NCBI RefSeq assembly: GCF_004959775.1
Contig: NZ_SJZG01000003.1
Location: forward strand, 186,001 to 250,000
Direction: 5' to 3'
Length of the DNA stretch: 64,000 bases
Source of the DNA: Agromyces sp. H66
Lineage (GTDB): Bacteria; Actinomycetota; Actinomycetes; Actinomycetales; Microbacteriaceae
In this document: positions 34,276 through 39,681 of the stretch, piece after piece
How the letters are laid out: each line of letters starts with the position of its first letter
How positions within the stretch are numbered: position 1 is the stretch's first letter
Notes under the pieces: generated by a model
Told to the model about the DNA's origin: nothing
What the model saw: the letters and a program-made list of their open reading frames with translations, nothing else
Database searches by the model: none
Program-made: the position numbers and the translations under genes

Positions 34276-35154
34276 GTGGCCGACCCCGATGAGCACGAGC
34301 GCCCCGTCGCCGAGAACACACGTCGGATCGAGGCATCCGTCGTCACCGACTTCAGCGACCGCATGAGCTACGGCGGCTACCTCGACCTCGACACCCTGCT
34401 GGCGGCGCAACGACCGATCTCGCGGCCCGAGCACCACGACGAGCTGCTGTTCATCATCCAGCACCAGACCACCGAGCTCTGGCTGAAGCTCGTGCTGCAC
34501 GAGCTCGAGACCGCGCGCGACCTGATGCGCGCCGACGAGCTCGCACCGGCGCTGAAGTGCATCGCGCGCGTGAAGCACATCCAGAAGACGCTCACCGAGC
34601 AGTGGTCGGTGCTGGCGACCCTCACCCCCACCGAGTACGCGCAGTTCCGCGGCGTGCTCGGCAACGCCAGCGGATTCCAGTCGTACCAGTACCGTGCCGT
34701 CGAGTTCGTGCTCGGCAACAAGAACGCGAAGATGATGCAGATCTTCGAGTCGGATGCCGCGGCCACCGCCATCCTCCGGCACGCGCTCGAGTCGCCGAGC
34801 GTGTACGACGAGTTCCTGCGGCTCCTCGCCCGGGCCGGGTATCCGATCCCGGCCGAGGTGCTCGATCGGGACGTGACGCTCGCGTGGACCTTCCGTCCCG
34901 AGCTCGTCCCGGTGTTCGCGTCGATCTACCGGAACCCCGACGAGCACTGGTCGGCGTACGAGACCTGCGAGGAGCTCGTCGACCTGGAGGACAACTTCCA
35001 GCTCTGGCGGTTCCGACACCTGAAGACCGTCGAGCGCATCATCGGCATGAAGACCGGAACGGGCGGGTCGAGCGGCGCGCCGTTCCTGAAGCGTGCGCTC
35101 GAGCTCACCTTCTTTCCCGAGCTCTACGCGGTGCGCACCGAGATCCCGGGATGA
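34276..35154 (+). CDS. kynA: Tryptophan 2,3-dioxygenase
   Basis: KynA uses haem and O2 to open the indole ring of tryptophan, giving N-formylkynurenine. The 292-residue protein has LLFIIQHQTTELWLKL (active-site His63), QFRGVLGNASGFQSYQYR (substrate Arg125 and the SGFQS motif) and LWRFRHLKTVERIIG with proximal His248, followed by GMKTGTGGSSGAPFL, which closes over the substrate. Length is normal for the bacterial tetrameric enzyme. It is the first gene of a tight three-gene operon. GTG 34276 is fixed by the promoter. Confidence 0.97.
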   Translation: MADPDEHERPVAENTRRIEASVVTDFSDRMSYGGYLDLDTLLAAQRPISRPEHHDELLFIIQHQTTELWLKLVLHELETARDLMRADELAPALKCIARVKHIQKTLTEQWSVLATLTPTEYAQFRGVLGNASGFQSYQYRAVEFVLGNKNAKMMQIFESDAAATAILRHALESPSVYDEFLRLLARAGYPIPAEVLDRDVTLAWTFRPELVPVFASIYRNPDEHWSAYETCEELVDLEDNFQLWRFRHLKTVERIIGMKTGTGGSSGAPFLKRALELTFFPELYAVRTEIPG

Positions 35155-35157
35155 CGG

Positions 35158-36177
35158 ATGCCGCACGCTGAGCACCCTTCGGTCCCCGAGCCGGTCGGCG
35201 GGCTCGACCTCGGCCCGCTCGCCGAGCCCGTTCGGCGCTCGTTGAACGGGGAGCACCCCGGCGACACCGGCACGCGGCTGCCGCCCCTCGTCGACCACCA
35301 CGTGCACCTCATGATCGTCGGGGCGCATGCGCTGGCCGACACCGCGCTCGCGGGCGTCGTCGACCTCGGCGCACCGCTCGACCTCCTGACGGCACGGCGT
35401 GCCCACGACGGCCTGCCGCACGTGGAGTTCGCCGGCGCATTCCTCACGGCGCCCGGCGGATACCCGGCCGGGCGTCCATGGGCGGTCGCCGGCTGCACGC
35501 GCGAGGTCTCCGCCGCGACGGGCGACGGCCGGGGGTCGCTGCCCGGCCCCGCCGAGACCGCCGTGTCGGAGCAGCGGGCGTTCGGGGCATCCGTCATCAA
35601 GGTCGCGCTGAACGCCGCCGCGGGCCCGGTGTTCGACCGGGCGACGCTCGACGCGGTCGTCGCCGCGGCGCACGGACGCGGCATGCCCGTCGTCGCGCAC
35701 GTCGAGGGCGACGGGATGACGCGGCTCGCGATCGAGGCGGGCGTCGACGCGCTCGCGCACACGCCGTTCACCGAGCGCATCGACGACGACCTCGTCGCGC
35801 GCGCCGCGGCCCTCGGGCAGCGGTGGATCTCGACGCTCTTCGTCACGAGCCACGGCGAGCCGTCGCCCGAGCGCGACCTCGCGATCGACAACCTGCGCCG
35901 GTTCCGTGCCGCGGGCGGGCGGGTGCTCTACGGCACCGATCTCGGCAACGGCGACCAGCCGCTCGGCGTGAACCCAGCCGAGGTCGCCCTGCTCACCGAG
36001 GCGGGGCTCGAGGCATCCGCCGTGCTCGACGCCATCTGCGACCCGTGGCCGCGGGGCGAGCGCGACGACGCCGTCGCGACGTTCGTGCCCGGCGCACCCC
36101 CCACGACGCTCGACGGACTCGCCGGCTGGCTCGCCTCGGCGTGCCTCGTGCCGGCCGAAGAACTGGAGGCCCTGTGA
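35158..36177 (+). CDS. Amidohydrolase superfamily protein of the kynurenine operon (candidate formamidase)
   Basis: The 339-residue metal hydrolase lies between kynA and kynU, where the step N-formylkynurenine to kynurenine is needed and no KynB or alpha/beta-hydrolase formamidase gene is present. All binuclear-site residues of the superfamily are visible: DHHVH (His48, His50), Lys148 in SVIKVALN as possible carbamylated ligand, His181 in VVAHVEG, His201 in LAHTPF and Asp261 in YGTDLGN. It starts three bases after the kynA stop, and its stop overlaps kynU. Position and chemistry (amide hydrolysis) suggest a non-orthologous kynurenine formamidase; sequence alone would also allow an imidazolonepropionase-like or other cyclic-amide hydrolase. 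Confidence 0.85.
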   Translation: MPHAEHPSVPEPVGGLDLGPLAEPVRRSLNGEHPGDTGTRLPPLVDHHVHLMIVGAHALADTALAGVVDLGAPLDLLTARRAHDGLPHVEFAGAFLTAPGGYPAGRPWAVAGCTREVSAATGDGRGSLPGPAETAVSEQRAFGASVIKVALNAAAGPVFDRATLDAVVAAAHGRGMPVVAHVEGDGMTRLAIEAGVDALAHTPFTERIDDDLVARAAALGQRWISTLFVTSHGEPSPERDLAIDNLRRFRAAGGRVLYGTDLGNGDQPLGVNPAEVALLTEAGLEASAVLDAICDPWPRGERDDAVATFVPGAPPTTLDGLAGWLASACLVPAEELEAL

Positions 36178-37433
36178 CCCACGACCCGCATCTCGCCTAC
36201 GCCCGCCGGATGGACCGCGCCGACGGGCTCGCGCATTACCGCAAGCGATTCGCGGGCGCCGATACCGACCTCGTCTACTTCGACGGGAACTCGCTCGGCC
36301 GCCCGCCGCTGTCGGCGATCGAACGCATGGAGCGGTTCCTGCGCGAGGAGTGGGGCGGGCGCCTCATCCGCGGCTGGGATGAATCGTGGATGCAGCTGCC
36401 GTTCGAGATCGGCGACCTCATCGGCCGCGCCGTCATCGAGGCCAAGCCCGGGCAGACCGTGATCGGCGACTCCACCACCGTGCTCCTCTACAAGCTCGCG
36501 CGCGCGGCCGTCGACGCGCAGCTCCTGCGCGATCCCGATCGCCGCGAGATCGTCGTCGACAGCGACAACTTCCCCACCGACCGGTACGTGCTCGAGGGCA
36601 TCGCCCGCGAGCGCGGCATGCGCCTGAGGTGGATCGAGGCGGACACCGCCGGCGGCGTGACGAGCGAGCACCTCGCGGAGGCGGCCGGACCCGAGACGGC
36701 CCTCGTGGTCATCAGCCACGTCGCCTACCGATCCGCGTACCTCGCCGACGCCCGCGAGCTCACGCGCATCGCGCACGACGCCGGCGCCCTCGTCATGTGG
36801 GACCTCTGCCATTCCGCGGGCTCGGTGCCCGTGAAGGCCGACCTGTGGGGGTTCGACCTCGCCGTCGGATGCACCTACAAGTACCTGAACGGCGGTCCGG
36901 GCTCTCCGGCGTTCGCGTACGTGCGCGACGACCTGCAGGAGGTGCTCGAACAGCCGATCCAGGGCTGGATGGGCACCGCCGACGTGTTCGCGATGGGGCC
37001 CGAGTACGTGCCGGCGCGCGGCATCCGTCGCTTCCTGAGCGGAACGCCGCCCATCGTGGGCATGCTCGCGATGCAGGAGACGCTCGCGATGATCGAGGAG
37101 GCGGGCATGCCCGCCATCCGCGCGAAATCCGTCGCCCTCACGGAGTTCGCGGTCTCGGTCGCCGAGGAGTGGCTCGCCCCGCTCGGCGTGACGCTCGCGT
37201 CGCCGCTGGACCCCGCCGAGCGCGGCGGGCACGTGACGCTCCAGCACCCCGCCATGCGGGAGGTCACGGCGCGGCTGTGGCAGCAGGACGTGATCCCCGA
37301 CTACCGCGACCCCGGCGGCCTGCGAATCGGGCTCTCGCCGCTCTCGACGAGCTTCGAGGAGGTGCACCGCGGGCTCGCGGCCGCCCGGGACACGCTCCGG
37401 ACGGTGCTCACCGAGCGCGCCGGGCTGGCGTAG
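36174..37433 (+). CDS. kynU: Kynureninase
   Basis: KynU cleaves kynurenine to anthranilate and alanine with PLP. The 419-residue protein matches full length: VYFDGNSLGRPPLSAIERM, GDSTTVLLYKLARAA, DSDNFPTDRYVLEG, VMWDLCHSAGSVPVKADLWG (Asp210 for the PLP pyridine) and GCTYKYLNGGPGSPAFAYV with Schiff-base Lys236. The GTG overlaps the amidohydrolase stop (GTGA). The last about 95 bases of this gene recur, diverged and broken, at 38915-39014 beyond the next three genes. Confidence 0.97.
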   Translation: MTHDPHLAYARRMDRADGLAHYRKRFAGADTDLVYFDGNSLGRPPLSAIERMERFLREEWGGRLIRGWDESWMQLPFEIGDLIGRAVIEAKPGQTVIGDSTTVLLYKLARAAVDAQLLRDPDRREIVVDSDNFPTDRYVLEGIARERGMRLRWIEADTAGGVTSEHLAEAAGPETALVVISHVAYRSAYLADARELTRIAHDAGALVMWDLCHSAGSVPVKADLWGFDLAVGCTYKYLNGGPGSPAFAYVRDDLQEVLEQPIQGWMGTADVFAMGPEYVPARGIRRFLSGTPPIVGMLAMQETLAMIEEAGMPAIRAKSVALTEFAVSVAEEWLAPLGVTLASPLDPAERGGHVTLQHPAMREVTARLWQQDVIPDYRDPGGLRIGLSPLSTSFEEVHRGLAAARDTLRTVLTERAGLA

Positions 37434-37463
37434 GCGCGACCGGGTCGCGTCGGGCTGGTCGGG

Positions 37464-37498
37464 TTGACCTGAAGTTAGTATGCGCGCATACTAACTTC
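37464..37498 (+). promoter_or_regulatory. Cassette promoter with 28-bp perfect palindromic operator
   Basis: TTGACC (37464-37469) and CATACT (37487-37492) are 17 bases apart. A perfect 28-bp palindrome (37471-37498, half-site GAAGTTAGTATGCG) fills spacer and -10 and ends directly at ATG 37499, six bases after the -10. The MarR protein encoded third in the operon is the obvious candidate to bind it. Confidence 0.85.
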
Positions 37499-37996
37499 AT
37501 GAGAACACTCGCAACGGGGAGCGCGACCTCGACGGCATCTGCCGACGGATTCTTCGCACGGTGGATCGACCACGACACCTGGTCGGAGTGGTCGCCCGAC
37601 ACCGAATGGGCCCGCGTCGAGGGCCCGGTCGCCACCGGAGCACGAGGCGTCCTGAAGCCGAAGGGCGGCCCCAGGACCCGCTTCACCGTCAGCGCCTGCA
37701 CCCCGGGCCGGGAGTACACCGATACCGCCCGATTCCCGGGCGCGCGACTGGTGTTCCAGCACACGGCGGAAGCCGTGGGCGGCGAGACGGTACTGCGCGT
37801 GCTCGTCACCGTCGACGGCCGGCTCGCCCCGCTCTGGGCCGCCATCCTCGGCGGCGGATTCCGCGACAGCGTGCAGGCCGATCTCGACCGGCTCGTGGCG
37901 CTCGTCGAGGCGGCGGAGTCGTCGAAACCTGCACCGGTCCGCTCGCAGGCGGATGCGCAGCCCGCGTCCTCGCACACCACCGGCAGCTCGTCGTGA
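37499..37996 (+). CDS. SRPBCC (START/Bet v1-like) family protein
   Basis: The 165-residue protein has the SRPBCC helix-grip pattern: SADGFFARWIDHDTWSEWSPD, GPVATGARGVLKPKGGPRTRF, DTARFPGARLVFQHTA and a C-terminal helix AILGGGFRDSVQADLDRLVAL, plus a disordered tail. These domains bind hydrophobic small molecules; some act as cyclases or hydrolases. It is the first gene of a leaderless, GTGA-coupled trio with EVE and MarR genes. The MarR operator abuts its ATG. A sensor or modifier of a lipophilic inducer is a reasonable guess, not more. Confidence 0.88.
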   Translation: MRTLATGSATSTASADGFFARWIDHDTWSEWSPDTEWARVEGPVATGARGVLKPKGGPRTRFTVSACTPGREYTDTARFPGARLVFQHTAEAVGGETVLRVLVTVDGRLAPLWAAILGGGFRDSVQADLDRLVALVEAAESSKPAPVRSQADAQPASSHTTGSSS

Positions 37997-38409
37997 GCGC
38001 CTGGCTGGGTGTCGCGTCAGCCGAACACGTGCGCAGGGGGGTCTCGCTCGGCATCGCGCAGATCGGCCACGGCAGGCGAGCCGGTCTCGCTCGGATGCAC
38101 GCCGGCGACACGATCGCCTACTACTCGCCGACCGAGCGCCTCGGCGACGGAGTGCCGCTCCGGCACTTCACCGCCATCGGCCGCATCGCCGACGACGTCA
38201 TCTGGCAGGCGGACGAGGGCGACTTCCGCCCGTTCCGGCGGCGGGTCGAATGGACGGATGCCGCGCCCGTCGCCCTGGACGTGGTGCGCGACCGGCTCGC
38301 CCTCACCGCTCGACCGAACTGGGGCCATCTCCTGCGCCGCGGACTGGTGCCGCTCGACGACGCCGACGCGGCGGTGCTGGTCGACGCGATGAGGGATGCA
38401 GCGCGGTGA
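37993..38409 (+). CDS. EVE (PUA-like) domain protein, UPF0310 type
   Basis: A 138-residue stand-alone EVE domain: WLGVASAEHVRRGVSLGIAQ, LARMHAGDTIAYYSPTERLG, FTAIGRIADDVIWQADEG, DFRPFRRRVEW and NWGHLLRRGLVPLDDADA. EVE/PUA-like domains form an aromatic pocket that reads modified bases such as 5-methylcytosine in DNA, or modified RNA. It overlaps both neighbours by GTGA, so it is made together with the SRPBCC and MarR proteins. No methyltransferase or nuclease is adjacent. A link between base modification and small-molecule stress sensing is an open possibility. Confidence 0.9.
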   Translation: MSAWLGVASAEHVRRGVSLGIAQIGHGRRAGLARMHAGDTIAYYSPTERLGDGVPLRHFTAIGRIADDVIWQADEGDFRPFRRRVEWTDAAPVALDVVRDRLALTARPNWGHLLRRGLVPLDDADAAVLVDAMRDAAR

Positions 38410-38858
38410 AGCGACGCCGACTCTCGACCGAGTTCGACGACGCCTCCGCGAGCCCCGGGCTGCTGCTCTGGCGGGTGACGAACGCCTGGCAGTCGGCCCA
38501 GCGCCACGCGCTCGCCCCGTTCGAGCTCACCCATGTGCAGTTCGTGCTGCTCGCCTCGCTCACCTGGCTCGAGGCCGACGAACCCGTCACCCAGGCCGAT
38601 CTCGCCGAACACGCGGGGACCGACCGGATGATGACCTCCCAGGTGTTGCGCACCCTCGAGGAGAAGGGCCTCGTCGTCCGGGCCCCGCACCCGCGAGACG
38701 CACGAGCCCGGGCGCTGTCGGCCACCGACGCGGGGGCAGACCTGGCGAACCGCGCGAACGCGGCCGTCGAGGCGACCGACCGCGCGTTCTTCGGCCGACT
38801 CGGCGACGACGCCGGCGCGTTCTCGGACGCGCTCCGGCGGCTCGACGGGCGAACCTGA
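38406..38858 (+). CDS. MarR family transcriptional regulator
   Basis: The 150-residue MarR protein has an N-terminal dimer helix (SPGLLLWRVTNAWQSAQRHA), HTH with QADLAEHAGTDRMMTSQVLR and a wing RAPHPRDARARALSATDAG. The conserved D-x-R-x-R wing (DARARAL) is intact. It is the last gene of the SRPBCC-EVE-MarR trio (GTGA overlap) and probably represses the 28-bp palindrome at the operon start. Half of that site also occurs in the promoter of the flavin monooxygenase at 7837, a possible second target. Confidence 0.92.
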   Translation: MKRRRLSTEFDDASASPGLLLWRVTNAWQSAQRHALAPFELTHVQFVLLASLTWLEADEPVTQADLAEHAGTDRMMTSQVLRTLEEKGLVVRAPHPRDARARALSATDAGADLANRANAAVEATDRAFFGRLGDDAGAFSDALRRLDGRT

Positions 38859-38914
38859 GACGACCTCATCCGGTCGGGCGGCACGGTGTCGGAGCGCCCG
38901 GTGGATTCGAGGGC

Positions 38915-39014
38915 GCTCTCGACGAGCGTCGAGGAGGTGCACCGCGGGCTCGCGGCCTCGCGGCCGCGCGGGACACCCTGCGCACGGTACTGACCGAGCG
39001 GCCGGGCTGGCGTA
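38915..39014 (+). pseudogene. Displaced, decayed second copy of the kynU 3' end
   Basis: This stretch aligns with kynU 37340-37433: GCTCTCGACGAGC, then 29 identical bases after one change, then CGGGACAC, ACGGT, ACCGAGCG and GCCGGGCTGGCGTA. Differences are mainly synonymous third positions (ACG/ACC, CTC/CTG, CGG/CGC, GTG/GTA), plus an 8-base insertion and one deletion that break the frame. It therefore looks like the tail of a diverged kynU allele rather than a fresh duplication. The MarR cassette lies between the two tails. The rest of 38859-39225 holds no gene. Confidence 0.8.
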
Positions 39015-39047
39015 AGCGTACGGCCCGCATCCGCGAATCGAGACGAT

Positions 39048-39087
39048 GCCATCCGCACCGTTGGAGCCGGCAACCGGTGCGGATGGC
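39048..39087 (+). terminator. Strong hairpin terminator downstream of the MarR cassette
   Basis: GCCATCCGCACCG (39048-39060) pairs perfectly with CGGTGCGGATGGC (39075-39087), a 13-bp stem with a 14-base loop, before the next promoter. Confidence 0.7.
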
Positions 39088-39225
39088 CTCAACTCGCGCC
39101 ACCGCGCCACCCGCACCCGGGAACTACCAGCCCGAGGGCCCCTCTGGCAACCCCCGGCCGTCGGTTCGGGCGGCATCCGGGCTGCGCGCGTACCATGACC
39201 GGATCGTACGAGGAAGGGTGGAACC

Positions 39226-39627
39226 ATGACCGACACGGACCGCACCATCGACGACGCGACCCGGGCCGCACGTGAGGCCGCCGAACGGGCGAAGGAGACC
39301 ACGAGCGAGGCCGTCGAGGACCTCTCCGACATCGTGAGCGGCACCGCCGCCGAATCCGCCGACACGCTCTCGGACGGCGCGGCGCAGGCGAAGGACGCCG
39401 CGGCGGAGGCCGTCGAGGACGTGCGAGCCGCGGCCGCCGACGCCATGGACAAGATGACGACCCAGGCGAAGGAGGCGTTGGAGAACGCCAGGGAGGCCGC
39501 GGACGACGGCGTCACCTATGTGAAGGCGAAGTACCGCGAGAACCCGGCGCTCGTGATCGCGGTCGGCGCGGCCGCCCTCGTGGGGGTCGGCGCCGTCCTG
39601 AAGGCGCTCTTCGCGCGTCGCCGCTGA
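39226..39627 (+). CDS. Membrane-anchored amphipathic helical protein (DUF883/YqjD-like)
   Basis: The 133-residue protein has a long charged helical region of Ala/Glu/Asp/Lys repeats (ATRAAREAAERAKETTSEAV, then AAQAKDAAAEAVEDVRAAAA, KEALENAREAADDG), then YVKAKYRENPALVIAVGAAAL and one C-terminal helix ending in FARRR. This layout resembles ElaB/YqjD and LEA-like stress proteins tethered to the membrane. ATG 39226 follows GAGGAAGGGTGGAACC. A general stress or envelope role is likely by analogy only. Confidence 0.75.
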   Translation: MTDTDRTIDDATRAAREAAERAKETTSEAVEDLSDIVSGTAAESADTLSDGAAQAKDAAAEAVEDVRAAAADAMDKMTTQAKEALENAREAADDGVTYVKAKYRENPALVIAVGAAALVGVGAVLKALFARRR

Positions 39628-39681
39628 CTCGCCGCCGCTGAGGCGTCCGCTGGTACGCCGCCGCGACGAGCCGCCGCCTCG

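Follow-up and report, generated by a model that had tools for sequence, protein, structure and literature searches.

Within a 64,000-nucleotide stretch of the Agromyces sp. H66 genome (RefSeq assembly GCF_004959775.1, contig NZ_SJZG01000003.1, positions 186,001 to 250,000; the whole stretch is called the window and its coordinates are used throughout) we describe a compact cassette of three overlapping genes, encoding an SRPBCC protein, a stand-alone EVE domain and a MarR-family regulator, which stand behind a single palindrome that covers their promoter. We consider it probable that the cassette is a MarR-repressed, ligand-induced operon that binds or detoxifies a polyketide-like molecule, and that it is a self-regulated unit spread by transfer. 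Its parts are the following.

37438-38913, forward strand: whole cassette (promoter/operator and three genes), missing at the orthologous place in the relatives compared
37464-37469, forward strand: -35 element TTGACC, recognised by sequence (TTG likewise in 66 leaderless-type loci)
37470-37499, strandless: perfect 30-bp palindrome in the window sequence, TGAAGTTAGTATGCG followed by CGCATACTAACTTCA
37476-37493, strandless: conserved 18-bp operator core TAGTAWGCGCGCATACTA, predicted MarR site
37487-37492, forward strand: -10 element CATACT, within the operator, at 17-bp spacing to TTGACC; the ATG starts 6 nt after it
37499-37996, forward strand: SRPBCC (Polyketide_cyc2) gene by Pfam match, leaderless start predicted
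37993-38409, forward strand: stand-alone EVE domain gene by Pfam match, its GTG start overlapping the SRPBCC stop
38406-38858, forward strand: MarR-family gene by Pfam match, predicted repressor, its GTG start overlapping the EVE stop

Neighbouring open reading frames (ORFs) of the trio share four nucleotides each (GTGA), and their translations matched the Pfam families Polyketide_cyc2 (E = 9.9e-9; 36.1 bits, cut-off 27.4), EVE (E = 1.8e-5; 25.2 bits, a narrow pass over the cut-off of 23) and the MarR winged-helix family PF01047 (E = 9.1e-13; 48.3 bits, cut-off 24.6). A first-pass annotation, made from the letters of this DNA, had proposed three genes fused by GTGA overlaps into one operon with its own MarR gene; the reading frames and the three families were all found, and the sequences of relatives back the operon. 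A chance neighbour set, confined to close relatives, was also considered and is rejected, since many genera carry the trio, or a two-gene version of it, behind one and the same operator.

The same annotation described a perfect 28-bp palindrome that ends at the first ATG and fills the promoter spacer and the -10 element. The palindrome is indeed perfect and ends at the ATG (its final base is the A of the SRPBCC start codon), and TTGACC, the 17-bp spacer and CATACT were found as described, but its length is 30 bp. With up to three mismatches allowed, none of 100 shuffled windows contained the 24-bp centre, and the 20-bp centre, its two middle bases left free, occurs nowhere else in the genome. 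Conservation in relatives is limited to approximately the central 18 bp, the outer arms being variable; in the six trio and two-gene loci compared first (window included) neither the TTG of the -35 element nor 15 of the 18 positions in the core vary.

The operator was followed through 80 named loci, the best 80 of 466 MarR-encoding places given by a MarR alignment search in named genomes (many of them Nocardia; L030, L053 and L054 are apparently the genomes G007, G049 and G119 of our genome set). Upstream of the operon, the core TAGTAWGCGCGCATACTA was present at three or fewer mismatches in 72 loci, at two or fewer in 69 and at no more than one in 59. By architecture, the 80 loci comprise 32 SRPBCC-EVE-MarR operons with the operator, 19 SRPBCC-MarR and 15 EVE-MarR operons with a leaderless-type start, one EVE-MarR operon led by a Shine-Dalgarno-like (SD-like) sequence (L052), six in which the operator precedes another, SD-led SRPBCC gene, and seven without the operator. 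Hereafter, the 73 named operator loci are the 72 with up to three mismatches plus L094.

A single draw of 394 genomes of the class served both the MarR and the operator searches. MarR relatives at E <= 1e-20 were found in 63 of them, and the operator at no more than one mismatch in five, all of which are among the seven genomes with MarR matches at E < 1e-50; the other two of these seven carry it with two and three mismatches. The reversed operator pattern occurred in none of the 394 genomes, and a stricter 20-bp pattern (two or fewer mismatches) in 2 of 299 genomes of the family. Lower-tier MarR loci (L117-L139, n = 23) have no operator at up to three mismatches, and 19 of them adjoin a weak SRPBCC match. 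The regulators themselves divide along the same line: residue 75 is M in 82/82 operator loci versus K or R in 18/23 lower-tier loci, and residue 95 is H in 81/82 versus D in 23/23, both positions lying, as we assume from the MarR fold, in the recognition helix and the wing. Since M75 and H95 are also present in the seven operator-less members, they mark the clade. The co-occurrence of operator and clade, together with these residues, forms the best evidence that the palindrome is the predicted site of this MarR, to which we infer that it binds.

Sixty-six of the 73 operator loci have a start codon 5 (54 loci), 6 (11) or 8 (1) nt past the core, and in all 66 a -35-like TTG stands 10-13 nt ahead of the core (12 or 13 in 64 of them). 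The SD-led group (the six above and L116) and L052 were separated by hand after inspection of the starts, with SD-like leaders judged by eye, so that the 66/73 is a count and not an independent test. With the -10 element inside the core and a fixed spacing, transcription is predicted to begin close to the first base of the start codon, and a bound dimer would repress it sterically; as the core lies upstream of that point, it should act at the level of DNA rather than as an RNA hairpin. We thus infer a leaderless transcript, and the first-pass suggestion of a leaderless layout with a palindrome over the promoter is backed by the sequences of the relatives.

The SRPBCC structure model (predicted local distance difference test, pLDDT, 94.5) has SMU.440 (3ijt) as its nearest solved structure, both as the top fold match and as the only sequence match of the SRPBCC profile. 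Seven cavity residues of SMU.440 (W26, W29, D32, F60, D73, F84 and H86) are identical in our protein and invariant in 35/35 SRPBCC relatives; they make up 7 of the 17 invariant residues and 7 of the 22 cavity residues listed for SMU.440. The EVE model (pLDDT 94.9) has a PUA-like fold, with PH1033 as its closest match (Z 15.9 over 131 residues) and YTH domains next (Z ~12). All 35 aligned EVE relatives match Pfam EVE at E <= 0.001, and in this sequence alignment W4, Y43, Y44, F78 and W110 are invariant and residue 81 is aromatic throughout; these residues might contribute to the aromatic cage for a modified base that the first-pass annotation had in mind. With 130.4 bits the window EVE stays below the equivalog cut-off (139) of NCBIfam NF002616, a model linked to UPF0310, and it is kept as a relative only.

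From these observations we propose the following course of events. A MarR dimer on TAGTAWGCGCGCATACTA, which spans the -10 element and the greater part of the spacer before it, would keep the operon shut until a small hydrophobic molecule, probably polyketide-like or aromatic, binds MarR and releases it from the operator. The transcript would then begin at the SRPBCC ATG or within about a nucleotide of it, and the leaderless message would be translated from its 5' end, with translation passing from gene to gene through the 4-nt overlaps. SRPBCC would bind (sequester or convert) the same class of molecule in its conserved pocket, while EVE may bind a modified base in RNA or DNA and so protect or mark the target of the molecule. 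The inducer of the cassette is probably a toxic small molecule.

The cassette lies behind a kynureninase gene on the same strand, whose stop codon is 30 nt ahead of the -35 box. The cassette is flanked by two copies of the 3' end of this gene:

37339-37437, forward strand: 3' end of the kynureninase gene, first direct-repeat copy (from repeat comparison)
38914-39014, forward strand: repeat of the kynureninase 3' end (second copy), bordering the cassette on its far side (94% over one 50-nt stretch, 86% over a second)

Among 60 genomes of the genus, 57 have kynureninase and four the trio (G000, G007, G020, G049), and two more (G010, G047) have a different EVE, 47 and 50% identical. The trio occupies a common site in G007 and G020, and other places in G049 and in the window. 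The genome with the most similar kynureninase (G012; 94%) has no EVE match at E <= 1e-5, and its locus L147 aligns with the window on both sides of the cassette (L147 1-2782 with 34653-37437 at 89.9%, L147 2684-3390 with 38914-39631 at 87.6%), so that a ~100-bp stretch of L147 matches both flanks, which form the direct repeat in the window. In all ten kynureninase loci compared with the window (of 30 fetched), positions 37438-38913 have no match at E <= 1e-8. As the flanks match with nothing between them, the unit at this place consists of promoter, operator and three genes, and the simpler reading of these alignments is that it was gained here. A second kynureninase-like gene (~40% identical) was seen in G058, G002, G039 and other genomes of the genus.

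Several observations weigh against a self-regulated, transferable detoxification operon. The empty place could in principle have arisen by loss, through recombination between the repeats. The operator is missing, even at four mismatches, in 7 of the 80 loci (L060, L061, L066, L082, L086, L093 and L099, of which L082 and L099 are contig-end loci), and L094 holds it only at four mismatches. Of the 73 operator loci, 25 lack EVE (the 19 SRPBCC-MarR loci and the six that are SD-led) and 22 lack this SRPBCC (16 EVE-MarR, six with the other SRPBCC), and therefore neither is indispensable. Seven of the 73 are not leaderless, as the operator leads six times into the different, SD-led SRPBCC gene and once (L052) into an SD-led EVE. 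L116, one of the seven class genomes with top MarR matches, combines a 3-mismatch operator with an SD-led gene and a tree position among the outgroup rows. The overlap of invariant residues with the SMU.440 pocket (7/17) is statistically modest (P = 0.016).

A few single loci are described for their own sake. Beside the degenerate operator of L116 lies an inverted partial copy, CACTATGCGCGCTTA (~2360-2400), possibly making two sites. The SRPBCC-type genes behind the operator in L046, L050, L079, L094, L103 and L106 have an SD-like leader and start with MW; a scan of two of the six placed each in Polyketide_cyc2. A TTGCCG in L103 and L106 stands 17 nt from the left operator half (TAGTAT), which could itself be a -10 element. 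Two operator-less Nocardia loci (L086, L093) retain an EVE match in the C-terminal part only (49 and 53% identity), next to intact and identical MarR rows.

Where SRPBCC is missing, the start behind the operator mostly persists. There are 17 operator loci that begin with EVE (16 of the 80, and L007), and 16 of them retain a start at +5, only L052 being SD-led. Eleven contain a mini-ORF of 13-32 codons, whose end in ten cases shares 4 nt with the EVE start (doubtful in L056, because EVE would there begin at CTG) and in L080 falls 38 nt short of the EVE match; in another five (L032, L067, L076, L096, L105) the frame runs into EVE, whose match in L067 is split into two pieces. For comparison, SRPBCC stop and EVE start of the trio loci (n = 34) overlap by 4 nt in 27 and by 1 nt in two, and are separated by a gap in five.

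The N-termini of mini-ORFs and fusions resemble SRPBCC starts (8/16 at p < 0.05; summed score 298, where shuffles averaged 114 and reached 185 at most), with fewer independent events than rows, as three of the similar rows are near-identical Rhodococcus. Clear similarity was not found for L007, L032, L043, L067, L070, L076, L081 and L096, whose mini-ORFs or fusions may thus have other origins. At the C-termini 2 of 11 mini-ORFs are individually notable against SRPBCC (L043, L065), and the summed score of 142 lies above the shuffle mean (111) and below the top of 1,000 shuffles (154). In an alignment with its Nocardia relatives L085 and L108, L080 retains the start and first 17 codons and lacks the gene body. 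Judged by such alignments, some of the mini-ORFs are SRPBCC deletion scars.

A quick MarR tree (36 of 89 inner branches open; L118 dropped for its length, five lower-tier rows included, L097 and L112 being identical) required 13 changes of SRPBCC presence over 74 rows and 13 changes for the EVE-only group, at least five of them forced by starred branches; such counts do not separate gain from loss. Taken with the scars, they have as their simplest reading several separate SRPBCC losses in which the start was kept. Translational coupling would explain why it was kept.

Alternatively, the mini-ORFs may be neutral debris of SRPBCC deletion, without a coupling role, and EVE may be translated independently. 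L080, with its 38-nt distance and an SD-like GGAGG before the EVE start, would fit this, as would the SRPBCC-EVE gaps in 5/34 trio loci, and with few independent events frame retention alone speaks weakly for coupling. Against it stand the 4-nt overlaps with EVE in 10 of 11 mini-ORFs (L056 with the doubt given) and the five further loci that stay in frame (L067 in two pieces), with a lone SD-led locus, and we regard it as a serious yet rather unlikely account. A further idea, which we think improbable, makes the leaderless start the functional core of the system. Leaderless messages are readable when ordinary initiation is inhibited, and such a message might still be read, e.g., in the presence of a ribosome antibiotic; the first SRPBCC codons would then double as a ribosome entry module, an SRPBCC gene undergoing deletion would have to leave its start (and often its stop) behind as a mini-ORF driving EVE and MarR, and EVE would contribute to the protection by recognising a modified base in tRNA or the ribosome. 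If so, loss of a gene body with its leaderless start kept would be a route to leaderless small ORFs.

Other roles were weighed against the detoxification operon that we favour. The first-pass annotation had considered a link with defence, and one might picture a phage-defence unit in which EVE reads modified phage DNA under MarR control: the literature covered here notes putative defence genes in the vicinity of such operons in Nocardia, and 35 of 72,556 plasmid records (including Priestia, 12, and Rhizobium, 9) carry EVE relatives, all at < 60% identity. PADLOC, however, assigned no family to SRPBCC or EVE and gave only weak MarR matches (best E = 1.5e-5), a search of 50,697 phage records with the window MarR found nothing, and an EVE relative was confirmed on one viral contig only (37% identity). 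Nor did a recurring fourth gene emerge outside Nocardia and near relatives, among the matches listed, when flanking ORFs chosen by an approximate coding score were roughly compared all against all and clusters spanning more than four loci were considered (with antisense and shadow ORFs over the trio set aside). The neighbours of L073 and L085 that Pfam could name are a potassium-channel-like protein, a NUDIX protein, a UvrD/HRDC helicase and WhiB, and one neighbour had no match. The suggestion thus found no support in PADLOC, the phage records or the one viral contig, and we hold a defence role to be quite unlikely.

A role as accessory of the kynurenine pathway, the trio serving the adjoining tryptophan-degradation genes (tryptophan dioxygenase, kynureninase), could draw on the 30 nt of same-strand spacing in the window and on G049, where kynureninase and trio lie ~19 kb apart on one contig. 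Yet kynureninase is present in 57/60 genomes and the trio in 4/60, no kynurenine gene was found within the 14-15 kb around the trio in G020, G007 and G049, a kynureninase search at E <= 1e-60 gave nothing in G007, kynureninase and trio are 2.6 Mb apart in G020, and the trio is missing from all ten kynureninase loci compared. This distribution and the empty loci refute it as a general function, and we give it almost no credence. Somewhat less remote, and still very improbable, is an OhrR-type switch in which MarR senses peroxides or electrophiles through a cysteine: the NCBIfam OhrR model does match, far under its cut-off (35.4 versus 200 bits), but the window MarR has no cysteine, none is invariant in the six aligned proteins, and a redox MarR is rejected on that ground.

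Two Nocardia neighbourhoods may be noted here. The trio of L073 has a NUDIX gene on one side and a UvrD/HRDC helicase gene on the other, and in L085 a WhiB-family gene follows ~2.9 kb downstream of MarR; possibly these are the defence-like place of Bell et al., and in our view the neighbourhood resembles a housekeeping one.

The value of a MarR-repressed, ligand-induced reading lies in what it makes accessible. A near-invariant 18-bp operator over many actinobacterial genera, in a fixed promoter geometry, renders the predicted EVE operon family directly testable, and with repressor, site and promoter proposed, screening for inducers could show to which signals this class of EVE operons responds. 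The mini-ORFs, in turn, offer a natural series on how a leaderless start and a gene overlap may sustain downstream expression.

Among characterised proteins, the best solved match of the window MarR is the regulator Rv2887 (5hsm; E = 4.9e-17), a distant one, and the best fold match of EVE is given by UPF0310 proteins such as PH1033 (1wmm, 2hd9, 2zbn), with 13% identity and a sequence-profile E of only 0.32. A parallel in organisation is SMU.440 of Streptococcus mutans, which forms one operon with the MarR gene SMU.441 through four overlapping nucleotides (PMC2749211), and for which the authors propose, from structure and gene context, resistance to polyketide-like antibiotics (PMC2749211). As in our cassette, an SRPBCC gene there shares its operon with a MarR gene and a 4-nt overlap is present; a difference is that, in the parts of that paper covered, no EVE gene is named.

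The first-pass annotation knew of no described system of this make-up. The combination had, however, been presented by Bell, Wolf and Koonin (2020), who regard MarR-EVE-SRPBCC operons as putative ligand-activated modules (PMC7641849); according to the sections covered, EVE genes are found most often with MarR or YafY regulators, plus SRPBCC (spelt SPRBCC) or EhpR/VOC proteins, in what are termed 'apparent 3-component systems' (PMC7641849). A literature search for SRPBCC, MarR and 'EVE domain' together returned nothing, and the spelling SPRBCC escapes such a query; the operator strings and 'UPF0310' were likewise not found in the literature searched. As in the window, the operons of Bell et al. 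unite EVE and MarR and include an SRPBCC gene, and our trio therefore belongs, as far as the text covered describes it, to a known kind. Neither 'palindrom' nor 'operator' occurs in the main text of PMC7641849 (the supplements lying outside this comparison). Beyond that main text, the window and its relatives contribute the operator, the leaderless layout, the mini-ORFs and the empty place.
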